Assembly (NCBI RefSeq): GCF_000283655.1
Contig: NC_016624.1
Location: 372,001 to 436,000, forward strand
Length of the DNA: 64,000 bases
Reading direction: 5' to 3'
From: Azospirillum lipoferum 4B
Lineage (GTDB): Bacteria; Pseudomonadota; Alphaproteobacteria; Azospirillales; Azospirillaceae
Part shown: piece by piece, positions 25,848 through 34,588 of the stretch
Layout of the letters: each line of letters begins with the position of its first letter
How positions within the stretch are numbered: the stretch's first letter is position 1
Made by a program: the position numbers and the translations under genes
The notes under the pieces: model-generated
The model's input: only the letters and a program-made list of their open reading frames with translations
Database searches by the model: none
What the model was told of the DNA's origin: nothing

Positions 25848-26816
25848 TCAATAAGCGTCCTTGCGGCGCTCATACTCCGCCTTGGCGGTCTCGGGGGTGA
25901 ACAGGGCCGATTCCGTCTGGATCCACTTCGGCGGCGCCTTGCCGTCCTTCTTGTAGGCGATCAGCGCGTCATAGGCCGGACCCGCCATGTTCGGCGTCAG
26001 CTCCACCGTGGCGTTCGCCTCGCCTTCCGCCATCGCCTTGAAGATGTCGGGCACGCCGTCGATGGACACCACCAGGATGTCCTTGCCCGGCTTCAGCCCG
26101 GCTTCCTTGATCGCCTGAATGGCGCCGACCGCCATGTCGTCGTTGTGGGCATAGACGGCGCAGATGCCCTTGCCGCCATTCTCGGCCTTGATGAAGCTCT
26201 CCATCACCTCCTTGCCCTTGGCGCGGGTGAAGTCGCCGGACTGGGTGCGGACGATCTTCATCCCCGGATTCTTGGCGACGATCTCGTCGAAGCCCTTCTT
26301 GCGGTTGATGGCGGGCGACGAGCCGACCGTGCCCTGCAACTCCACCACCGCGCATTTGCCGCCGGTCTGCTTGGCCAGCCATTCGCCGGCCACCCGGCCC
26401 TCATGCACGGTGTCGGAGGTGACGGCGGTCATGTAGAGGCTGGGGTCCTTGGTCTCGATCTGGCGGTCGAGCAGCACGACCGGGATCTTCGCCTCCTTGG
26501 CTTCCTTCAGCACCGAATCCCAGCCGGTCGCCACGACGGGAGCGATGAAGATCGCATCCACCCCCTGGGCGACGAAGGAGCGCACGGCCTTGATCTGGTT
26601 TTCCTGCTTCTGCTGGGCGTCGGAGATCTTCAGCTCGATGCCGCGCTTCTCGGCTTCCGCCTTGGCGGTCTTGGTCTCCGCCGCGCGCCAGCCCGATTCC
26701 GATCCGATCTGCGAGAAGCCGACCACCAGCTTCTTGTCGGCGGCCTGCACCGCACCGAGCCCGATGAAGAGCGCCGCGGCGGCGGTGGCGGCGGAGATCA
26801 CCCATTTCCTGGACAT
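25848..26816 (-). CDS. ytfQ: Sugar ABC transporter periplasmic binding protein (YtfQ-like)
   Basis: 322 aa. Signal peptide with cleavage after VQA (AVQA-ADKK), then a Peripla_BP_4 fold: VVGFSQIGSESGWRAAETK, FIAPVVATGWDSVLKEAK, PVVLLDRQ, YAHNDDMAVGAIQAIKEAG, VVSIDGVPDI. This is close to E. coli YtfQ (galactofuranose), though in this setting arabinose or galactose is possible. Start at ATG 26816, with AGGGAG eight bases upstream; an in-frame GTG at 26825 is less well placed. The promoter region contains the 19-bp regulon box at 26945-26963. Confidence 0.92.
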   Translation of the reverse strand: MSRKWVISAATAAAALFIGLGAVQAADKKLVVGFSQIGSESGWRAAETKTAKAEAEKRGIELKISDAQQKQENQIKAVRSFVAQGVDAIFIAPVVATGWDSVLKEAKEAKIPVVLLDRQIETKDPSLYMTAVTSDTVHEGRVAGEWLAKQTGGKCAVVELQGTVGSSPAINRKKGFDEIVAKNPGMKIVRTQSGDFTRAKGKEVMESFIKAENGGKGICAVYAHNDDMAVGAIQAIKEAGLKPGKDILVVSIDGVPDIFKAMAEGEANATVELTPNMAGPAYDALIAYKKDGKAPPKWIQTESALFTPETAKAEYERRKDAY

Positions 26817-26944
26817 CTGTTTCACTCCCTGAGGGTTTATTGCCGTGCTTTTCGGATGGGGGCAGGCGGCGGAACGGGGCGCTGAAAGATCGTGATCGCA
26901 GCCCGGTCGAATTTGTTCGCGATGCCTACTTTAAGTACCCAAAA

Positions 26945-26963
26945 CCATAACTGTCCAATACGA
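26945..26963 (-). promoter_or_regulatory. 19-bp sugar-regulon box, copy 1 (ytfQ operon)
   Basis: Minus strand TCGTATTGGACAGTTATGG, 129 bp upstream of ytfQ. Copies with 13 invariant positions occur at 32254-32272 and 33357-33375, each pointing toward its downstream operon. TTGGAC inside the box could double as a -35 element, with CTTAAA 17 bases on. The remainder of 26817-27119 shows no gene or other clear signal. Confidence 0.75.
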
Positions 26964-27119
26964 TTCTCGACCGATGCGATGCTGAAAAGGATATGTCCGG
27001 TCGAAAGAACGGCCGGGCAGCGGAAGGCCGCCCGGCCGCAAGGTGACCCCGGTTCGAGAGAGACCGGGGCCGACGCACCCGAGGGAGAGCGCGCCGGGAC
27101 GCAGCCGCCGCAGTGGGAT

Positions 27120-27142
27120 GGAGAAAAGCACCGCGGCGGTGC
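27120..27142 (-). terminator. Terminator after the porin gene
   Basis: Minus strand GCACC-GCCGC-GGTGC followed by TTTTCTCC, about 55 bases after the porin stop. Short stem, so moderate confidence. Confidence 0.5.
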
Positions 27143-27197
27143 GAAGCCGGGAGAAAGGCCAGGACGTCGGTTGGCCCCCTGTTGGAAAGCCAGGCCT

Positions 27198-28352
27198 TTA
27201 GAAGGCGAGGTTCGTCTGGATCAGGAACATGTCGCCCTTGTCGCTGTTGGCGGCGACGTCGGAGCTGAGCTTGAAGTGGTTGTACTCCGGCCCGACGCTG
27301 AAGCCGGGCGCGACGACATAGCGGGCGCCGACGGTGATCAGCTCGAACTTGCTGCGGCCGCGCACCGTCAGGTCGCCGGCGTCCTTGGCGTTCAGGTAAC
27401 CGACGCCCAGCGTCGTGGGGCCGAAGGTGTATTGCGCGCCGACGGTCCAGACGTCCTGCTTCTCGCGGCTGACGATGCCGGCGGTGCTGGACTTGGCATA
27501 GCCGCTGTCGCCCGACCAGGCATAGCTGCCGCCGACCTTCAGCCCGCCATAGGCCACCGTCAGGCCGGCATGGGTGGACGACAAATCGTCGAAGCGCGCC
27601 GCCGTCGTGCTGGATTCCTTGGCCTTGCCGCCCAGGTAGAACAGGCTGGCATTGACCGCGACGCCGCCGAAGCTGTTGGCATAGGTGCCGCCGACCTCGT
27701 AGACGTCACGGTAGGCGCCGGTGCGGTTGGCCGAGGCGAGCGCCACCTTGGACCGGTTGACGTCGGTGCCGCTGCTGTCCGACGACGGCTGGTAGGAGGC
27801 GCCGAGCTTGAAGCCGGCGATCTCCGGCGTCCAATAGGTGGCGCGGGTGGCGCTGTTGCCGGAGATCAGGGCGCGGATGTTGCCGATGGTGACCGGCGCA
27901 TTGGTCGCGCTGTTGCCGAGCCAGGAGGGGAAGGAGCCGTCGACGCCGCCGGTGCCCCAGTCGGACGGGGCGATGATGCCGCTGTCGTCGGAGGGCCCGT
28001 TCTCCACACCCATGTGGACGGTGCCGAAGCCGCCCTGCACGAACAGGAAGGCGCGGTCATAGCCGGTGCTGCGGGCGTTGCCGGCGCCGTTCTCGGCCAG
28101 CAGGCGCAGGCGGGCGCCGTATTCCAGACCGTTGTCGGCCTTGGCCTTCGGCGTGACCAGCAGGCGCAGGCGGTTGCGGAACTCGGTCGAGCGCAGGCCG
28201 GCGTCGCGGTCCTGGTCGACATAGCCGGCCTCGAAATAGGCATCGCCGCCAAGGACCACGTCGAACTTCGACTGGGCGAAGGCCGGGGTGACCCCCAGGA
28301 CGGAGACGAGCGAAAGGGTGGCTGCGCCAAGCAGCAGTGCGGATCTCACCAT
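27198..28352 (-). CDS. Outer membrane porin
   Basis: 384 aa. Signal peptide (cleavage after TPAFA, mature QSKFDVV), then a beta-barrel-like alternation rich in Gly, Asp and aromatic residues, ending in the outer-membrane signature Phe (IQTNLAF). Gram-negative porin (Porin_4-like) type with the typical GFGTVHMGVENGP loop region. Start at 28352 with GAGGAAA upstream. It lies between the KGSA dehydrogenase gene and the ytfQ unit and probably admits pentose or hexose sugars to the periplasm; specificity is inferred from context only. Confidence 0.88.
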   Translation of the reverse strand: MVRSALLLGAATLSLVSVLGVTPAFAQSKFDVVLGGDAYFEAGYVDQDRDAGLRSTEFRNRLRLLVTPKAKADNGLEYGARLRLLAENGAGNARSTGYDRAFLFVQGGFGTVHMGVENGPSDDSGIIAPSDWGTGGVDGSFPSWLGNSATNAPVTIGNIRALISGNSATRATYWTPEIAGFKLGASYQPSSDSSGTDVNRSKVALASANRTGAYRDVYEVGGTYANSFGGVAVNASLFYLGGKAKESSTTAARFDDLSSTHAGLTVAYGGLKVGGSYAWSGDSGYAKSSTAGIVSREKQDVWTVGAQYTFGPTTLGVGYLNAKDAGDLTVRGRSKFELITVGARYVVAPGFSVGPEYNHFKLSSDVAANSDKGDMFLIQTNLAF

Positions 28353-28482
28353 CAGCGTTTCCTCTTGTTCCGGTTTGTTTTTGCTTCGATAGCCAGTGTC
28401 GGGAGCGGTCTTTCGGCAATGCGCGGGCGCACGCCGTGCCCGACCGTCAGGCCCGGCGCGCGGCCGGACCCGACAGCGTGTC

Positions 28483-28508
28483 CTGCGTCAGCGCTCCCTC
28501 TGACGCAG
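28483..28508. other. Stem-loop between KGSA dehydrogenase and porin genes
   Basis: CTGCGTCA (28483-28490) and TGACGCAG (28501-28508) form an 8-bp stem with a 10-base loop, without a T-run. It may slow exonucleases or partly terminate before the porin gene. The regulon box is not found in this 213-bp gap. Confidence 0.5.
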
Positions 28509-28565
28509 CCGTTGCGGGTTGGTGGTGCCGGTCAGTCCCGACCGGTGGTCAGGCCTGTCCGCAGG

Positions 28566-30146
28566 TCAATTCCGTCCAAGTGTCCCGTCGATGCGCCGCC
28601 ACAGCCCCAGCGGGTTGCCGTCGCGCACCGCCTCCGGCAGCAGCTCGGCGGGAATGTCCTGGTAGCAGACCGGGCGCAGGAAACGGCGAAGCGCCAGCGT
28701 GCCGACCGAGGTGCTGCGGGCGTCGGAGGTCGCCGGGAAGGGGCCGCCATGCACCATCGCGTGGCAGACCTCCACCCCCGTCGGCCAGCCGTTCGCCAGG
28801 ATGCGGCCGGCCTTGCGCTCCAGCGTCGGGATCAGCGCCGCCACCGCCGCCTTGTCCTCCGCGTCCATCTGCACCGTCGCGGTCAGCTGCCCTTCCAGAC
28901 GTTCGGCGACCGCCTTCATCGCCGCGACATCCGGACAGCGGATCAGCAGAGAGGCCGCGCCAAACACCTCCTCCTGCAATTCCGTGTCGGCCAGGAAGGC
29001 GTCCGCCGTCGTAGCGAAGAAGGCCGCCTGCGCCTGGTTCGGCCCGCTGCAGGCCATGCCGCGCGCCAGCGCCGTCACCGCGCCGCTGCCGGCCAGCTTG
29101 GCGACGCCGGCGTCATAGGCGGCGTGGATGCCGGGCGTCAGCATGGTGGACGCCGCACTGCAGCCGATGGCCTCCACCGCCGCCACGACGAAGCGGTCGA
29201 GATCCGGCCCCTCGACGCCCAGCAGGATGCCGGGGTTGGTGCAGAACTGTCCGGCGCCCATGGTCAGCGACGCCACGAACGACTTGCCCAGCGCCTCGGC
29301 CCGCGAGGCCAGCGCCGCCGACATCAGGAAGACCGGGTTGATGCTGCTCATCTCGGCATAGACCGGGATCGGCTCCGGCCGCCTGGACGCCACCTCCATC
29401 AGCGCCAGCCCGCCGCGGCGCGAGCCGGTGAAGCCGACCGCCTTGATGCGCGGATCGGCGACCAGCGCCGTGCCGATCTCGTTTCCGGTGCCGAACAGCA
29501 GGGAGAAGACCCCCTCGGGCAGGCCGCAGGACGCGACCGCCGCCCGGATGGCGCGGCCGACCAGCTCCGACGTGCCGGGATGGGCGCCATGGCCCTTCAC
29601 CACCACCGGACATCCGGCGGCGAAGGCCGAGGCGGTGTCGCCGCCGGCGACCGAGAAGGCGAGCGGGAAGTTCGAGGCGCCGAACACCGCGACCGGCCCC
29701 AGCGGGATATGGCGCTGGCGGATGTCGGGGCGGGGCAGCGGCGTGCGCGCGGGCATGGCCGGGTCGATGCGCGCCTCGATCCAGCTTCCCTCGCGCACGA
29801 CCTGGGCGAACAGGCGCAGCTGCCCGACGGTGCGGCCGCGCTCGCCCTCCAGCCGGGGGCGCGGCAGGCCGCTTTCGGCCATGGCGCGGGCGATCAGCTC
29901 GTCGCCGATGTCGAGGATGTTCTGGGCGACCGTTTCCAGGAAGGTCGCGCGCTGGTCCAGGCCGGTCTCGCGGAAGGCGTCGAATGCGGCCCAGGCCAGG
30001 GCGCAGGCGCGCTCGACCTCCGCCGCGCCGCCGCCGCCGAAGGCGGGCTCCAGAACCTCGCCGCTGGCGGGGTCGACGGCGCGGAACTCGCCCTCGCCGC
30101 CGCGGTGGGCGCTGGCGCCGATCAGCATCTCGCCGGTGATGGTCAT
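28566..30146 (-). CDS. 2,5-dioxovalerate (alpha-ketoglutarate semialdehyde) dehydrogenase
   Basis: 526 aa aldehyde dehydrogenase. NADP-binding part [15 protein letters not shown] ... [14 protein letters not shown], nucleotide loop GFTGSRRGG, general base Glu in [11 protein letters not shown], catalytic Cys in [10 protein letters not shown]. Length and motifs fit the long (type II/III) KGSADH class rather than the roughly 480-aa AraE of A. brasilense. It would oxidise 2-oxoglutarate semialdehyde to 2-oxoglutarate, the last step after the KDA dehydratase encoded next to it. Start 30146 after GGAG. Separated from the dehydratase gene by a palindromic repeat. Confidence 0.92.
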
Positions 30147-30184
30147 GATGGGTCTCCATTGTGGGAGGGGGTAGGCTGGCGATC

Positions 30185-30300
30185 GCCCCCACCCCAACCC
30201 CTCCCCCGCTGGGCGGGGGAGGGGGTAAGTGCTTATTCGGGAGAGCGGCGGCAGTCCCCTCCCCCGTCCAGCGGGGGAGGGTTAGGGAGGGGGCATCCGC
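30185..30300. repeat. Dispersed palindromic repeat (REP/BIME-like), copy 2
   Basis: Same architecture as 2829-2940: two palindromes CCTCCCCCGC/GCGGGGGAGG flank a spacer with GGGAGAGCGGCGGCAGTC. Located between the KDA dehydratase and KGSA dehydrogenase genes, in transcript context. Confidence 0.85.
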
Positions 30301-30309
30301 TGCAAGAAC

Positions 30310-31236
30310 TCAGCGCCCCCAGCGCAGCACCAGCGGATCGACCCGCCGCGCCGCGTCCAGCAGCCCCTCGCGGCTGATCGGGTGCGGGTTGGCCACCGGG
30401 TGGCGCATCGCCTCCGACTTGATGACGCCGCCCTCCTTCATCAGGATCTTCGCAGTGGCGATGCCGCACTGGCGGTTCTCATGGTTGATCAGCGGCAGCC
30501 AGCGCCCATAGGCCGCCACCGCCGCCTCGCGGTCGCCGGCCAGGAACGGGTCGACGATCTGGCGGATGCCGTCGGGATAGCCGCCGCCGGTCATCGCCCC
30601 CGTCGCCCCGGCGTCAAGGTCGGCCAGCAGCGTGATCGCCTCCTCGCCGTCCCACGGGCCCTCGATGGCGTCGCCGCCCAGTTCGATCAGCGTGCGCAGC
30701 TTGGCGGCGGCCTGCGGCACCTCGATCTTGAAATAGGAAACGTTGGCGATCTCCCGCGCCATCCGTGCCAACAGGGCGGCGGAGAGCGGGGTTCCGCTGA
30801 CCGGCGCGTCCTGGATCATGATCGGGATGTCGATGGCGTCCGATACCCGCTGGAAGAACTCGACGATGCCGGCCTCCGGCACGCGGATGGTGGCACCGTG
30901 ATAGGGCGGCATCACCATCACCATTGCGGCCCCCATATCCTGGGCGCGGCGGCTGCGCTCGGCACAGGCGCGGGTGCTGAAATGGGTGGTGGTGACGATC
31001 ACCGGCACCCGGCCGGCGACATGGGCCAGCATCGTCTCCATCAGCACCGCGCGCTCGTCGTCGGTCAGCACGAACTGCTCGGAGAAGTTGGCGAGGATGC
31101 ACAGGCCGGTGGAGCCGGCGTCGATCATGAAATCGACGCAGCGCTTCTGGCCGTCGAGATCCAACTCCCCCGTTTCGGTGAAGATGGTGGGGACGACGGG
31201 GAAGACGCCGCGGTACGGGCGGGCGCTGGACGGCAT
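30310..31236 (-). CDS. araD: 2-keto-3-deoxy-L-arabonate dehydratase (DHDPS/NAL family)
   Basis: 308 aa. A (beta/alpha)8 barrel of the dihydrodipicolinate synthase superfamily; the Schiff-base Lys lies in VSYFKIEVP at about residue 170. The N-terminal GVFPVVPTIFTETGELDLDGQ is characteristic. Length and setting match A. brasilense AraD (not E. coli AraD), which converts 2-keto-3-deoxy-L-arabonate to 2-oxoglutarate semialdehyde. ATG 31236 is preferred (AAGGA upstream) to 31254. Located 35 bases after the lactonase stop, same operon. Confidence 0.88.
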   Translation of the reverse strand: MPSSARPYRGVFPVVPTIFTETGELDLDGQKRCVDFMIDAGSTGLCILANFSEQFVLTDDERAVLMETMLAHVAGRVPVIVTTTHFSTRACAERSRRAQDMGAAMVMVMPPYHGATIRVPEAGIVEFFQRVSDAIDIPIMIQDAPVSGTPLSAALLARMAREIANVSYFKIEVPQAAAKLRTLIELGGDAIEGPWDGEEAITLLADLDAGATGAMTGGGYPDGIRQIVDPFLAGDREAAVAAYGRWLPLINHENRQCGIATAKILMKEGGVIKSEAMRHPVANPHPISREGLLDAARRVDPLVLRWGR

Positions 31237-31271
31237 GGCGGTGGAATCCTTCATCGAAATCGGATCGGCAT

Positions 31272-32153
31272 TCAGCGCGACGGGGAACCGAACCGCCCGG
31301 GCGGTAGGCCGCGGACGCCGGGGTCGCACTCGAACAGCGCCCCGGCCAGCGGCTCCTCGGACCGGCCGTGCGCCGCGGTGGTGACGAACAGCCGGTCGAG
31401 GTCCGGACCGGCGAAGACGCAGGAGGTGACGCGGGAGACCGGCAGGGCGATGGCGCGGTCCAGACTGCCGTCCGGGCGGAAGCGGCTGACGCGCGCGCCA
31501 TCCCAATGGGCGACCCACAGGCACCCCTCGGCATCGCAGGTCATGCCGTCGGGGTAGCCGTCGGCCTCGCCGAAGCGGATGTGGACGCGCTTGCCCGACA
31601 GGCTGCCGTCGGCGCCGACATCGAAGGCACGGATGGTCCGCGCCGCGCTGTCGGTGTGGTAGATCGTCCGCCCGTCCGGCGACAGCGCCGGCCCGTTGGC
31701 GACGGTGTAGCCCTCGTCCACCCTGGTAACGGCGCCGTCGGGATCGATGCGATAGAAGCTGCCGGCCGGCGCCTCCTCCGCATCGTCCATGCTGCCGACC
31801 CACAGCCGGCCCTGGGCATCGGCCTTGCCGTCGTTCAGCCGGTTGCCCGGCCGGTCCGGCTCGATCCGCGCCAGTTCCTCGGCGATCACCGCCTGCCCCG
31901 GCTCCAGCAGCAGGCGGACCACCCGTCGGGAGCGCAGCCCGGCTATGAGGCCGTTGCCGTCGGCGCTCTCCACCAGCCAGCAGGCGGCGGCGTCAAGCTC
32001 CCACCCCGCCCGCGCCCCGTCGGACAGACCGTGGCGCAGGATGCGGGAGCCGCGGATGTCGACGAAGTAGACGGCATCCTGCCGCGGGGACCAGAGCGGA
32101 CCCTCCCCCAGCAGGGCCCGGGCCTGCCAGACGCAACGCGCTTCCTGCGCCAT
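31272..32153 (-). CDS. araB: SMP-30/gluconolactonase family L-arabinolactonase
   Basis: 293 aa six-bladed beta-propeller lactonase. Likely metal ligands: Glu17 (LLGEGPLW), Asn in NRLNDGKAD, Asn in VANGPALSPDG and Asp in DGYPDGMTCD. The family hydrolyses aldonolactones. Next to araD and in the same regulon as the sugar 1-dehydrogenase it is the likely L-arabinolactonase (AraB in Azospirillum nomenclature, unrelated to E. coli ribulokinase). Start 32153. First gene of the leftward operon, divergent from the LysR gene. Confidence 0.88.
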   Translation of the reverse strand: MAQEARCVWQARALLGEGPLWSPRQDAVYFVDIRGSRILRHGLSDGARAGWELDAAACWLVESADGNGLIAGLRSRRVVRLLLEPGQAVIAEELARIEPDRPGNRLNDGKADAQGRLWVGSMDDAEEAPAGSFYRIDPDGAVTRVDEGYTVANGPALSPDGRTIYHTDSAARTIRAFDVGADGSLSGKRVHIRFGEADGYPDGMTCDAEGCLWVAHWDGARVSRFRPDGSLDRAIALPVSRVTSCVFAGPDLDRLFVTTAAHGRSEEPLAGALFECDPGVRGLPPGRFGSPSR

Positions 32154-32253
32154 GCCGCTTCACTCCCCCTCGCACCCGGTGGCCGCCCATTTCAGGATTT
32201 GCGCCGGCAGCCATTCCAAAATTTGTTGACGACCCGAACGATAAGAGGCCTTT

Positions 32254-32272
32254 TGATAATCGTCCAATACGA
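32254..32272 (-). promoter_or_regulatory. 19-bp sugar-regulon box, copy 2 (lactonase/LysR intergenic)
   Basis: Minus strand TCGTATTGGACGATTATCA, 101 bp upstream of the lactonase start and 80 bp before the LysR start. TTGGAC followed 18 bases later by TATCGT gives a possible promoter for the leftward operon. A further related half, CAAATATCGTAT, lies at 32291-32302 toward the LysR gene. Confidence 0.75.
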
Positions 32273-32352
32273 AGATGGGCGCTTGCGATAGCAAATATCG
32301 TATCCCGGCATCCCATAACCCGGTGACGGCGCCCGACCGGAGGCAACCACCC

Positions 32353-33366
32353 GTGACCCCGCAACGCTTCCCCCCGAATTGGTTCCAGAAGGCCCGGCTG
32401 AAGCTGCGCCATCTCCAGCTGTTCGCGGCGCTCGACGAACACCGCAACCTGCACCGGGCCGCCGCCAGCCTGAACATGTCGCAGCCGGCGGCCTCCAAGC
32501 TGCTGGGCGACCTTGAGGAGACGCTGGGGATCGAGCTGTTCGACCGCCATGGCCGCGGGATCGAGCCGAACTGGTACGGCAGCCTCATGATACGCCACGC
32601 CCGGATGATCCTCAGCGAGTTGCAGGAAACCGGCGAGGAGTTGAACGCGCTGCTGGCCGGGCACAGCGGCCGGGTGTCGGTCGGCACGGTGATGGCTCCG
32701 GCGGTGGAACTGGTGGTGCCGGTCATCAGCAGCCTGACCCGCGAGCATCCCGGCCTGAAGATCGGCGTGGCGGTGGAGACCAGCGACGTGCTGGCCGAAC
32801 GGGTGCATCAGGGGGTAATGGATTTCGCCATCGGCCGCCTGCCCGGCCATTTCGACCCCACCGCATTCGATTATCAGGAGATCAGCAGCGAGGAGCTGTG
32901 CTTCATCTGCCGCGCCGGCAATCCGCTGCTGCAGCTCGGCCGCCCGTTGGCCGCCGCCGACCTGTCGGACGCCACCTGGATCCTGCAGCCGGTCGGCACG
33001 CTGCTGCGCGACCGGGTGGAGGCGCTGTTCCGCGCCGAGGGCGCCCGGCTGCCGCACAAGGTGATCGAAAGCGCGTCGCCGGTGATCTCGATGGCGATGG
33101 TGGCGGAGACCGAGTCGATCACCGTCTTCGCCCGCGCGCTAGCCCAGGTGTTCACGCCCGGCGGCTGCTACACGATCATGCCCTTCCACAAGCGCTTCAG
33201 CGTGGAGCCCTACGGCATCTTCTGGCTGAAGGACCGGCCGCTGTCGCCGGGGGCCCGCACCGTCCTGTCGGCCGTGCGCGCGGCGTCGGAACGCAAGATG
33301 CGCCAGCTCGCAGGATCGACGGCCGATATAGAAATGCATATCGGTTTGCCGAATAATCATATTTGA
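32353..33366 (+). CDS. gbpR: LysR-type regulator, GbpR-like
   Basis: 337 aa. N-terminal winged HTH (LKLRHLQLFAALDEHRNLHRAA, then MSQPAASKLLGDLEETLGIELFDR), followed by the LysR effector domain starting near residue 95 (GRVSVGTVMAPAVELV). Resembles GbpR, the regulator adjacent to the ChvE/SbpA sugar receptor in Agrobacterium and Azospirillum. Start is GTG 32353 after GGAGG; the frame is open upstream but across the promoter. Sits between the two sugar operons; the 19-bp boxes are candidate binding sites. Box 3 overlaps its own 3' end. Confidence 0.9.
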   Translation: MTPQRFPPNWFQKARLKLRHLQLFAALDEHRNLHRAAASLNMSQPAASKLLGDLEETLGIELFDRHGRGIEPNWYGSLMIRHARMILSELQETGEELNALLAGHSGRVSVGTVMAPAVELVVPVISSLTREHPGLKIGVAVETSDVLAERVHQGVMDFAIGRLPGHFDPTAFDYQEISSEELCFICRAGNPLLQLGRPLAAADLSDATWILQPVGTLLRDRVEALFRAEGARLPHKVIESASPVISMAMVAETESITVFARALAQVFTPGGCYTIMPFHKRFSVEPYGIFWLKDRPLSPGARTVLSAVRAASERKMRQLAGSTADIEMHIGLPNNHI

Positions 33367-33375
33367 CAGTTATGG
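33357..33375 (+). promoter_or_regulatory. 19-bp sugar-regulon box, copy 3 (chvE operon)
   Basis: Plus strand TCATATTTGACAGTTATGG, 110 bp upstream of the chvE-like gene, overlapping the last codons of the LysR gene. TTGACA within it could be a -35 element, though the -10 match (GATTGC) is poor, consistent with an activator-dependent promoter. Confidence 0.75.
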
Positions 33376-33484
33376 GAAAACGGAGGATTGCTAGGGACAC
33401 AAACCATCGCGTCCCACGCCGTCCGCGACACCGAAAGCGGGGGCTGCGAAACGCGTGCCGTAGAAACGGGGAGGATTCCGGTCC

Positions 33485-34588
33485 ATGTCGTCTCGTAAGC
33501 GTTCTTCCTTCGGTTCAAACCTCGCCGGCAAACTTGCCGGCCTCACCGTCGGCCTGCTGATCGCCGCCGGCTCCGCAGCCGCCCCGGCGATGGCCCAGGA
33601 CAAGCCGACCATCGGCATCGCCATGCCGACCAAGTCGTCGGCGCGCTGGATCGACGACGGCAACAACATGGTCAAGTATTTCCAGGAAAAGGGATACAAG
33701 ACCGACCTGCAATATGCCGAGGACGACATCCCCAACCAGCTCGCCCAGATCGAGAACATGGTCACCAAGAACGACAAGGTTCTGGTGATCGCCGCCATCG
33801 ACGGGACGACGCTGACCGACGTGCTGCAGAAGGCGGCGGAGCGCGGCGTGAAGGTCATCGCCTACGACCGGCTGATCCGCGGGTCCGCCAATGTCGATTA
33901 CTACGCCACCTTCGACAACTTCCAGGTCGGCGTGCTCCAGGCCGCCTACATCGAGAAGGCTCTCGGCCTGAAGGAGGGCAAGGGTCCCTTCAACATCGAG
34001 CTGTTCGGCGGCTCGCCCGACGACAACAACGCCTATTTCTTCTACAACGGCGCCATGTCGGTGCTGCAGCCCTACATCGACAGCGGCAAGCTGAAGGTGC
34101 AGAGCGGGCAGGTCGGCATGGACAAGGTGTCCACCCTGCGCTGGGACGGCGCGGTCGCCCAGGCCCGCATGGACAATCTGCTGAGCGCCTATTACAGCGG
34201 CAAGAAGCTGGACGCGGTGCTGTCACCCTATGACGGGCTCAGCATCGGCATCATCTCGTCGCTGAAGGGCGTCGGCTACGGCACTCCGGGGCAGCCGATG
34301 CCGGTGGTGACCGGCCAGGATGCCGAGGTCCAGTCGGTCAAGTCGATCCTGGCGGGCGAGCAGCGCTCCACCGTCTTCAAGGACACCCGCGAACTGGCGA
34401 AGGTCACGGTGGGCATGGTCGACGACCTGCTGGCCGGCCGCACCCCGCAGGTCAACGACACCAAGACCTACGACAACGGCAAGAAGATCGTCCCCTCCTA
34501 TCTGCTGAAGCCGGTCAGCGTCGACTCCACGAACTGGAAACAGGTCCTGGTCGACGGCGGCTACTACAAGGAATCGCAGATCAAGTGA
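33485..34588 (+). CDS. chvE: Multiple sugar-binding periplasmic receptor (ChvE/SbpA-like)
   Basis: 367 aa. Signal peptide cleaved after APAMA near residue 37, then a Peripla_BP_4 fold: [91 protein letters not shown]. Strongly ChvE/XylF-like. ChvE in Agrobacterium (virulence sensing) and SbpA in Azospirillum (chemotaxis) bind galactose, arabinose and related aldoses. RBS GGGGAGG before ATG 33485. First in an operon with gguA, gguB, sugar dehydrogenase and dehydratase. Confidence 0.93.

Follow-up and report, generated by a model that had tools for sequence, protein, structure and literature searches.

A candidate LysR-type operator-promoter shared by three sugar operons of Azospirillum lipoferum and its relatives

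A stretch of 64,000 nucleotides from Azospirillum lipoferum 4B (contig NC_016624.1, positions 372,001 to 436,000; hereafter the window) carries a 19-bp box in front of three operons for sugar uptake and oxidation, headed by chvE, by a lactonase gene and by ytfQ. Each box is the downstream half of a longer composite element. Comparative searches reveal this element, its fixed geometry, its targets and its tie to the gene of a LysR-type regulator. The element is most likely explained by a LysR-type activator of sugar catabolism together with its operator-promoters. The neighbouring LysR-type regulator is very probably its reader, since the same element also precedes the matching sugar-receptor gene in Rhizobium. 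A preliminary description of this DNA had proposed the three operons as a shared regulon. This candidate is supported: the presence of sites tracks that of the LysR gene, sites follow their targets in rearranged genomes, and a site precedes chvE in Rhizobium.

Anatomy of the element

The boxes occupy positions 26945-26963 (minus strand; box A, ytfQ promoter), 32254-32272 (minus; box B, lactonase operon promoter) and 33357-33375 (plus; box C, chvE promoter), each oriented toward its downstream gene. Thirteen of the 19 positions are common to all three copies. The distance from the box end to the start codon is 129 bp for ytfQ (ATG 26816), 101 bp for the lactonase gene (ATG 32153) and 110 bp for chvE (ATG 33485), and the LysR gene sits between the second and third box. 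All of this agrees with the preliminary description. No other match to the box with up to 3 mismatches occurs in the 64-kb window. In 100 dinucleotide shuffles of the window the mean number of matches is 0.08 and three matches were reached once, a test that is partly circular because the box pattern was derived from the same three boxes.

Alignment of 30 related loci reveals a second conserved block upstream of every box. The resulting composite pattern, ATA-N10-TATC-N15-CRTATTKGACRRTTAT, spans about 50 letters. The lactonase and chvE sites of the window match it without mismatch and the ytfQ site with one. The upstream block is a dyad, GATACGATATTTGCTATCG in the lactonase element (32286..32304, minus strand; 6 of 9 complementary pairs; separated by 49 bp from GTG 32353, the likely LysR start) and GATATAGAAATGCATATCG in the chvE element (33325..33343, plus strand; likewise 6 of 9 pairs). 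The ytfQ element carries a weak copy, CATATCCTTTTCAGCATCG (26977..26995, minus strand), at the same fixed spacing as in the other promoters. The chvE dyad lies within the 3' coding end of the LysR gene: the whole chvE operator-promoter (33325-33375) overlaps this end and the LysR stop codon (TGA 33364-33366) falls within box C.

Across species, mean pairwise identity in the promoter footprints is 0.92-0.94 in the box and 0.74-0.80 in the dyad vs 0.37-0.44 in the upstream flank, the last being a low estimate as the comparison is ungapped. The ytfQ dyad is also kept across species (0.74 vs 0.38 in its upstream flank). Dyad symmetry averages 5.1 of 9 pairs vs 2.4 in shuffles, a difference that is partly built into the pattern.

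Classical LysR activators have a dyad recognition site near -65 and an activation site over the -35 region. The element plausibly matches this layout. It has both the dyad and the fixed spacing, while the placement of the dyad centre at about -65, and of the box at about -41 to -23, follows from taking TTKGAC as the -35 element. The candidate -35 sequences are TTGGAC in box A (26953-26958) and box B (32262-32267) and TTTGAC in box C (33362-33367). A promoter scan finds a promoter-like pair in box A (TGGACA-18-TAAAGT), which is likely an activation site combined with a -35 element, and none at threshold in boxes B and C. A further pair at 33329-33357, over the chvE dyad, is regarded as chance or secondary. 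The earlier suggestion that the box joins a -35 element to an activator half-site fits the anatomy, with the amendment that the box is only the downstream portion and the main recognition dyad likely lies 14-32 bp upstream of it.

Distribution in Azospirillaceae

Genome-wide scans with box and composite covered 82 Azospirillaceae genomes, relatives of the window's own genome. The search for the box in relatives that the preliminary description had called for, made at up to 2 mismatches, finds it in 56 of them, with 0-2 matches per genome in the backwards control. A perfect box match in genome G079 is regarded as chance: no dyad at the required spacing and no pathway gene were found. The weak matches in G001 (2 mismatches; C22:557070, C33:569662) were also rejected; that at C22:557070 has neither an upstream dyad nor a nearby pathway gene.

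With the composite at up to 3 mismatches, 112 sites are found in 39 of the 82 genomes and none in the backwards control of all 82; 0.0015 matches per 7.5 Mb would be expected from independent bases. All 112 lie upstream of pathway genes, or of the gene for a tripartite ATP-independent periplasmic (TRAP) binding protein beside such genes. The targets are chvE (38), ytfQ (34), lactonase (34), L-2-keto-3-deoxyarabonate (KDA) dehydratase (2), IlvD (2) and TRAP binding protein (2). Three sites had no target in the first pass; one precedes a lactonase gene (G044) and two precede genes for DctP-type TRAP binding proteins (G028, G041). With the window included, start codons lie at a median of 159 bp (ytfQ), 128 bp (chvE) and 107.5 bp (lactonase) from the box start. 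The fixed geometry of the element itself recurs in many species and at three promoters that are otherwise unrelated.

These counts bear on the idea that the similarity reflects descent or chance, whether through promoter duplication or as an artefact of the choice of pattern, with no regulatory role. It is true that the pattern was written from three boxes and that orthologous promoters share ancestry. However, the empty backwards control and the very low expectation, the retention of box and dyad while the flanks diverged (even with flank identity underestimated) and the loss of the site in G001, where ytfQ abuts the upstream operon, make this explanation highly improbable.

The LysR regulator is present (E<=1e-60) in 40 of the 82 genomes. 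The composite occurs in 39 of these 40 and in none of the 42 genomes without the regulator. Two of the latter, G019 and G025, possess chvE and ytfQ, and the fetched loci contain no strict composite up to 6 mismatches; in G019 a more distant LysR (37%) adjoins chvE, with a 5-mismatch variant of a relaxed pattern. This distribution also makes it quite unlikely that the box is merely the -35 region of a strong sigma-70 core promoter of highly expressed operons, in which LysR plays no part. TTKGAC is indeed near the -35 consensus, box A belongs to a recognizable promoter pair, and TTTGAC is retained in most of the distant chvE promoters though other letters differ. However, a plain promoter would be expected at many genes, whereas dyad-bearing sites number mostly three per genome and all lie at pathway genes; nor would it be expected to vanish along with LysR, or from chvE and ytfQ genes that are kept.

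Site count tracks operon count in most genomes. Two sites are found in G012 and G030, in which ytfQ is absent at E<=1e-70, and in G001, where ytfQ follows the aldehyde dehydrogenase gene by 49 bp and lacks a site of its own. Conversely, targets moved away from the regulator keep their sites: in five genomes (G013, G018, G043, G045, G041) chvE sits on a different contig or at a distance of 12 to 27 kb from LysR, and for ytfQ the distance is about 600 kb in G035 and about 550 kb in G045. Separate contigs in the draft genomes G022 and G032 perhaps hold true neighbours and were not counted as rearrangements.

Composite sites beyond the family

A survey of wider kin covered 80 of 301 confirmed loci, from Azospirillum, Skermanella, Halomonas and kin, Chthonobacter, Acidocella, Luteimonas, Rhizobium and others. 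Each of the 20 Rhizobium/Rhizobiales loci (7 kb) has its best composite match directly upstream of LysR, with 3 (19 loci) or 4 (one locus) mismatches to the strict pattern; chvE is the divergent neighbour of LysR in all three of these loci that were checked. A pattern relaxed at its ends was matched in 15 of 18 genomes and its control in none. Among the 11 Rhizobium genomes, the main site matches this pattern with 0 (10 genomes) or 1 (one genome) mismatch and is the sole site with up to 2 mismatches in 10; the eleventh has a second match at 2 mismatches that adjoins no pathway gene. Sites are also found before chvE and ytfQ in Chthonobacter albigriseus and before IlvD in Acidocella.

In a sample of the class (385 genomes) a LysR relative at E<=1e-45 is present in 17, 15 of them outside Azospirillum. 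Seven of these 15 have a divergent chvE, and in all seven the best match of the locus lies in the LysR-chvE gap (1, 1, 2, 5, 5, 5 and 6 mismatches). The remaining eight include one, G068, in which a match with 4 mismatches lies upstream of LysR.

Several observations weigh against the reading of the element as operator-promoters of this LysR-type activator. Within the window, the ytfQ dyad is poor, with 2 of 9 complementary pairs. Within the family, G002 carries a LysR relative (45% identical) and no composite at 3 mismatches, with a 4-mismatch candidate at its chvE, and in the 2.5 kb retrieved for the ytfQ of G041 (82% identical; C72:52945-53907, L310) even the best match has 8 mismatches or more. 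Orthologous promoters do not count as independent occurrences of the site, and the positions named in the pattern served to select the sites. Farther away, the relaxed pattern at 2 mismatches has no match in the two Halomonas genomes among the 18 searched (nor in Arenibaculum), and four of the seven chvE loci of the class sample match only with 5 or 6 mismatches. Across the class as a whole, the bare pattern shows no enrichment at 2 mismatches, with 13 matches outside Azospirillum vs 16 in the backwards control. Three of the 13 adjoin LysR/chvE, and the class-level support thus comes from position, not from frequency, because the bare pattern is not above control. Finally, the proposed LysR binding and control of the operons are drawn from comparison.

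The LysR-type regulator

The presumed reader of the element is a LysR-type protein of 337 residues (32353..33366, plus strand) with HTH_1 (PF00126, E 1.6e-18) and LysR_substrate (PF03466, E 3.8e-34) domains, which place it in the family. Its start was moved from the ATG of the longest open reading frame (32275) to GTG 32353, because GGAGG precedes the latter and the former would put the divergent operator inside the gene. Among 25 of 52 matches listed, no curated NCBIfam LysR equivalog reaches its cut-off, the best being PcaQ (161.1 bits vs a cut-off of 303.8).

A tree of 41 rows places the Azospirillum proteins, together with Skermanella (88/80), outside the Rhizobium GbpR clade (9 rows, 100/100), and a surrounding 12-row clade (100/98) likewise excludes every Azospirillum row except the second-type protein of G019. 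The DNA-binding region of the window protein is 81-85% identical to that of three Halomonas proteins vs 37% for Rhizobium GbpR. The tree leaves the Azospirillum-Halomonas fork open, and DNA-binding identity alone favours this grouping. The regulator had been described as GbpR-like. This label holds for the neighbourhood (chvE-gguA-gguB) and for the element before chvE, and fails for clade membership; it therefore designates a probable role rather than a branch.

The element could be regulatory and be read by another factor, for example a global regulator of carbon use or a further LysR paralogue, with the neighbouring LysR as a bystander. First-look searches yield tens of LysR candidates per Azospirillum genome, G028 has two close LysR paralogues, and binding by the neighbouring protein is deduced by comparison. 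However, the element co-occurs with this very LysR (39 of 40 genomes vs none of 42), faces outward from the LysR gap in distantly related species, and changes its letters with the regulator: in a LysR subclade (G019, G340, G380) and kin, 4 of 5 have the variant box GATTTGACC[CG][GA]CAT (G115 and G243 are absent from the tree). A reader other than the neighbouring LysR thus appears unlikely. This variant box lies upstream of LysR in a GbpR subclade (L258, L259, L261, L150), where TTTGAC is constant and the surrounding letters vary.

Two names from the literature were rejected. In the text available, GguR designates a GntR-family protein of Halomonas, and VtlR, considered as reader, is reported not to bind the chvE promoter (PMC7486931).

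Proposed mode of action

A tetramer of the LysR protein (product of 32353-33366) would occupy the upstream dyad ATA-N10-TATC, centred near -65, and a second site formed by the 19-bp box over the -35 region. A signal of L-arabinose or D-galactose would bind LysR and shift its grip on the downstream site, so that RNA polymerase would be recruited. This would switch on three operons: one for uptake by ChvE/SbpA-GguAB that also encodes the sugar dehydrogenase and the IlvD dehydratase, one for the lactonase, KDA dehydratase and semialdehyde dehydrogenase, and one for uptake of the YtfQ (furanose) type. Because the lactonase and LysR genes are divergent and have the lactonase site between them, this site could also control the LysR gene. 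Binding, tetramer, ligand, activation, transcription start and autoregulation are all predictions of this scheme.

Relation to known systems

GbpR-chvE regulation and the arabinose pathway are already known, as are LysR activators with such a layout. In Rhizobium, as in the window, LysR adjoins chvE-gguA-gguB and the matching composite beside LysR contains TATTTGACAGTTAT as in the chvE box. However, chvE is divergent from LysR there and the site is mostly single, whereas in Azospirillum chvE lies behind LysR and lactonase and ytfQ operons are added. The two regulators also belong to separate clades of the tree, and their DNA-binding regions are 37% identical.

The enzymology of the oxidative L-arabinose pathway of A. 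brasilense was reportedly worked out by Watanabe in 2006. The enzymes are the same as those considered here (L-arabinose 1-dehydrogenase, lactonase, dehydratases and semialdehyde dehydrogenase); that work reportedly concerns enzymology, and the shared operator is the present addition. The pathway work is cited in PMC5507952 and PMC3141670. The gbpR-sbpA-gguAB cluster is known in A. brasilense (PMC4042000) and a cluster in Roseobacter litoralis (PMC3141670). A gene of A. brasilense located behind the lactonase gene and ahead of chvE shares 77-79% identity with the window LysR and has the same sites; it presumably corresponds to the published gbpR. The accessible portions of these two papers describe neither an operator nor a wider regulon.

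In Halomonas, AraR, also of the LysR type, is the predicted controller of divergent araMFGHCY and araR, according to PMC5507952. Most Halomonas relatives checked have LysR and an aldose-epimerase gene in divergent orientation, and the Halomonas DNA-binding region is the one close to that of the window protein. A ATAACCAAATGGGTAT-type dyad is visible by eye in several intergenic gaps. In contrast, the box is TATTAGCGGTTA, shifted by about one base, and gives no match at 2 mismatches in the two genomes searched. In two Azospirillum genomes with a second-type LysR, G028 and G041, the composite precedes TRAP-transporter operons (L130 9418-9465, minus strand; L132 2515-2562, plus strand). These sites recall the TRAP system for arabinonate that has been predicted in Halomonas (PMC5507952).

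GbpR has been named as the ChvE/SbpA regulator since the 1990s, as stated in PMC4086400. Neither an operator for GbpR nor the three-operon regulon was found described in the parts of the open literature searched. The operator itself and this regulon are the new elements here, and the more unusual aspect is the spread of a single grammar to regulators whose DNA-binding regions have diverged. ChvE/SbpA is the receptor by which root-associated bacteria sense plant sugars. The element predicts the regulon from sequence and ties L-arabinose/D-galactose uptake, the chemotaxis receptor and degradation to one Azospirillum regulator. With the element defined, the question of the GbpR operator becomes testable with short DNA probes.

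More tentatively, a single operator grammar of ancient origin (a dyad, a fixed gap and a -35 element fused with the activation site) may have been kept before chvE across alphaproteobacteria while its LysR reader split into clades whose DNA-binding regions are about 40% identical and the letters around the invariant TTTGAC came to vary by subclade. The grammar might then have spread to more operons in Azospirillum and Chthonobacter, building a plant-sugar regulon that joins chemotaxis and uptake receptors to the oxidative arabinose pathway. We consider this scenario possible, at somewhat less than even odds.

Genes of the three operons

The chvE/sbpA gene (33485..34588, plus strand) encodes a periplasmic sugar-binding protein (NCBIfam ChvE, 565.9 bits, cut-off 460; closest Protein Data Bank (PDB) chain ChvE 3urm). 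It heads an operon extending to 40309, with gguA, gguB, an L-arabinose/D-galactose 1-dehydrogenase gene and an IlvD-family dehydratase gene. The dehydrogenase matches PDB 6jnj (L-arabinose 1-dehydrogenase) and 4ew6 (D-galactose 1-dehydrogenase). The IlvD protein scores above the PRK13017 subfamily cut-off and below that of the L-arabinonate dehydratase equivalog (501.4 vs 882); it is therefore assigned to the subfamily and not to a substrate.

The lactonase is of the SMP-30/gluconolactonase family (31272..32153, minus strand; Pfam SGL, 1.1e-77). Its operon continues with KDA dehydratase (30310..31254, minus; PDB 7c0c, E 1.7e-143; Pfam DHDPS) and an aldehyde dehydrogenase (28566..30149, minus). 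The latter matches aldehyde-dehydrogenase models, reaches no curated cut-off among 25 matches listed, and is presumed from its place in the operon to be alpha-ketoglutaric semialdehyde dehydrogenase.

The ytfQ product (25848..26816, minus strand) is a galactofuranose-type binding protein (NCBIfam YtfQ, 579.8 bits, cut-off 510; PDB 2vk2 YtfQ). Its gene heads an ABC operon to about 21026, with an ATPase, two permeases and an aldose epimerase. Taken together, the matches for the three operons identify the pathway as the oxidative one for L-arabinose and D-galactose.

Other features of the promoter regions

An RNA element was considered and rejected, as Rfam gives no match across 26500-33800. A terminator-like hairpin (27128-27142, minus strand) lies between a porin gene and the ytfQ promoter; the scan yields no more such hairpins than shuffles do. 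An AACAAA/ACAAAC block (about 26902-26920, 32222-32232 and 33397-33407) follows each box by about 23-28 nt, near the expected transcript start, and is conserved in the alignments of the three promoters and in many species.

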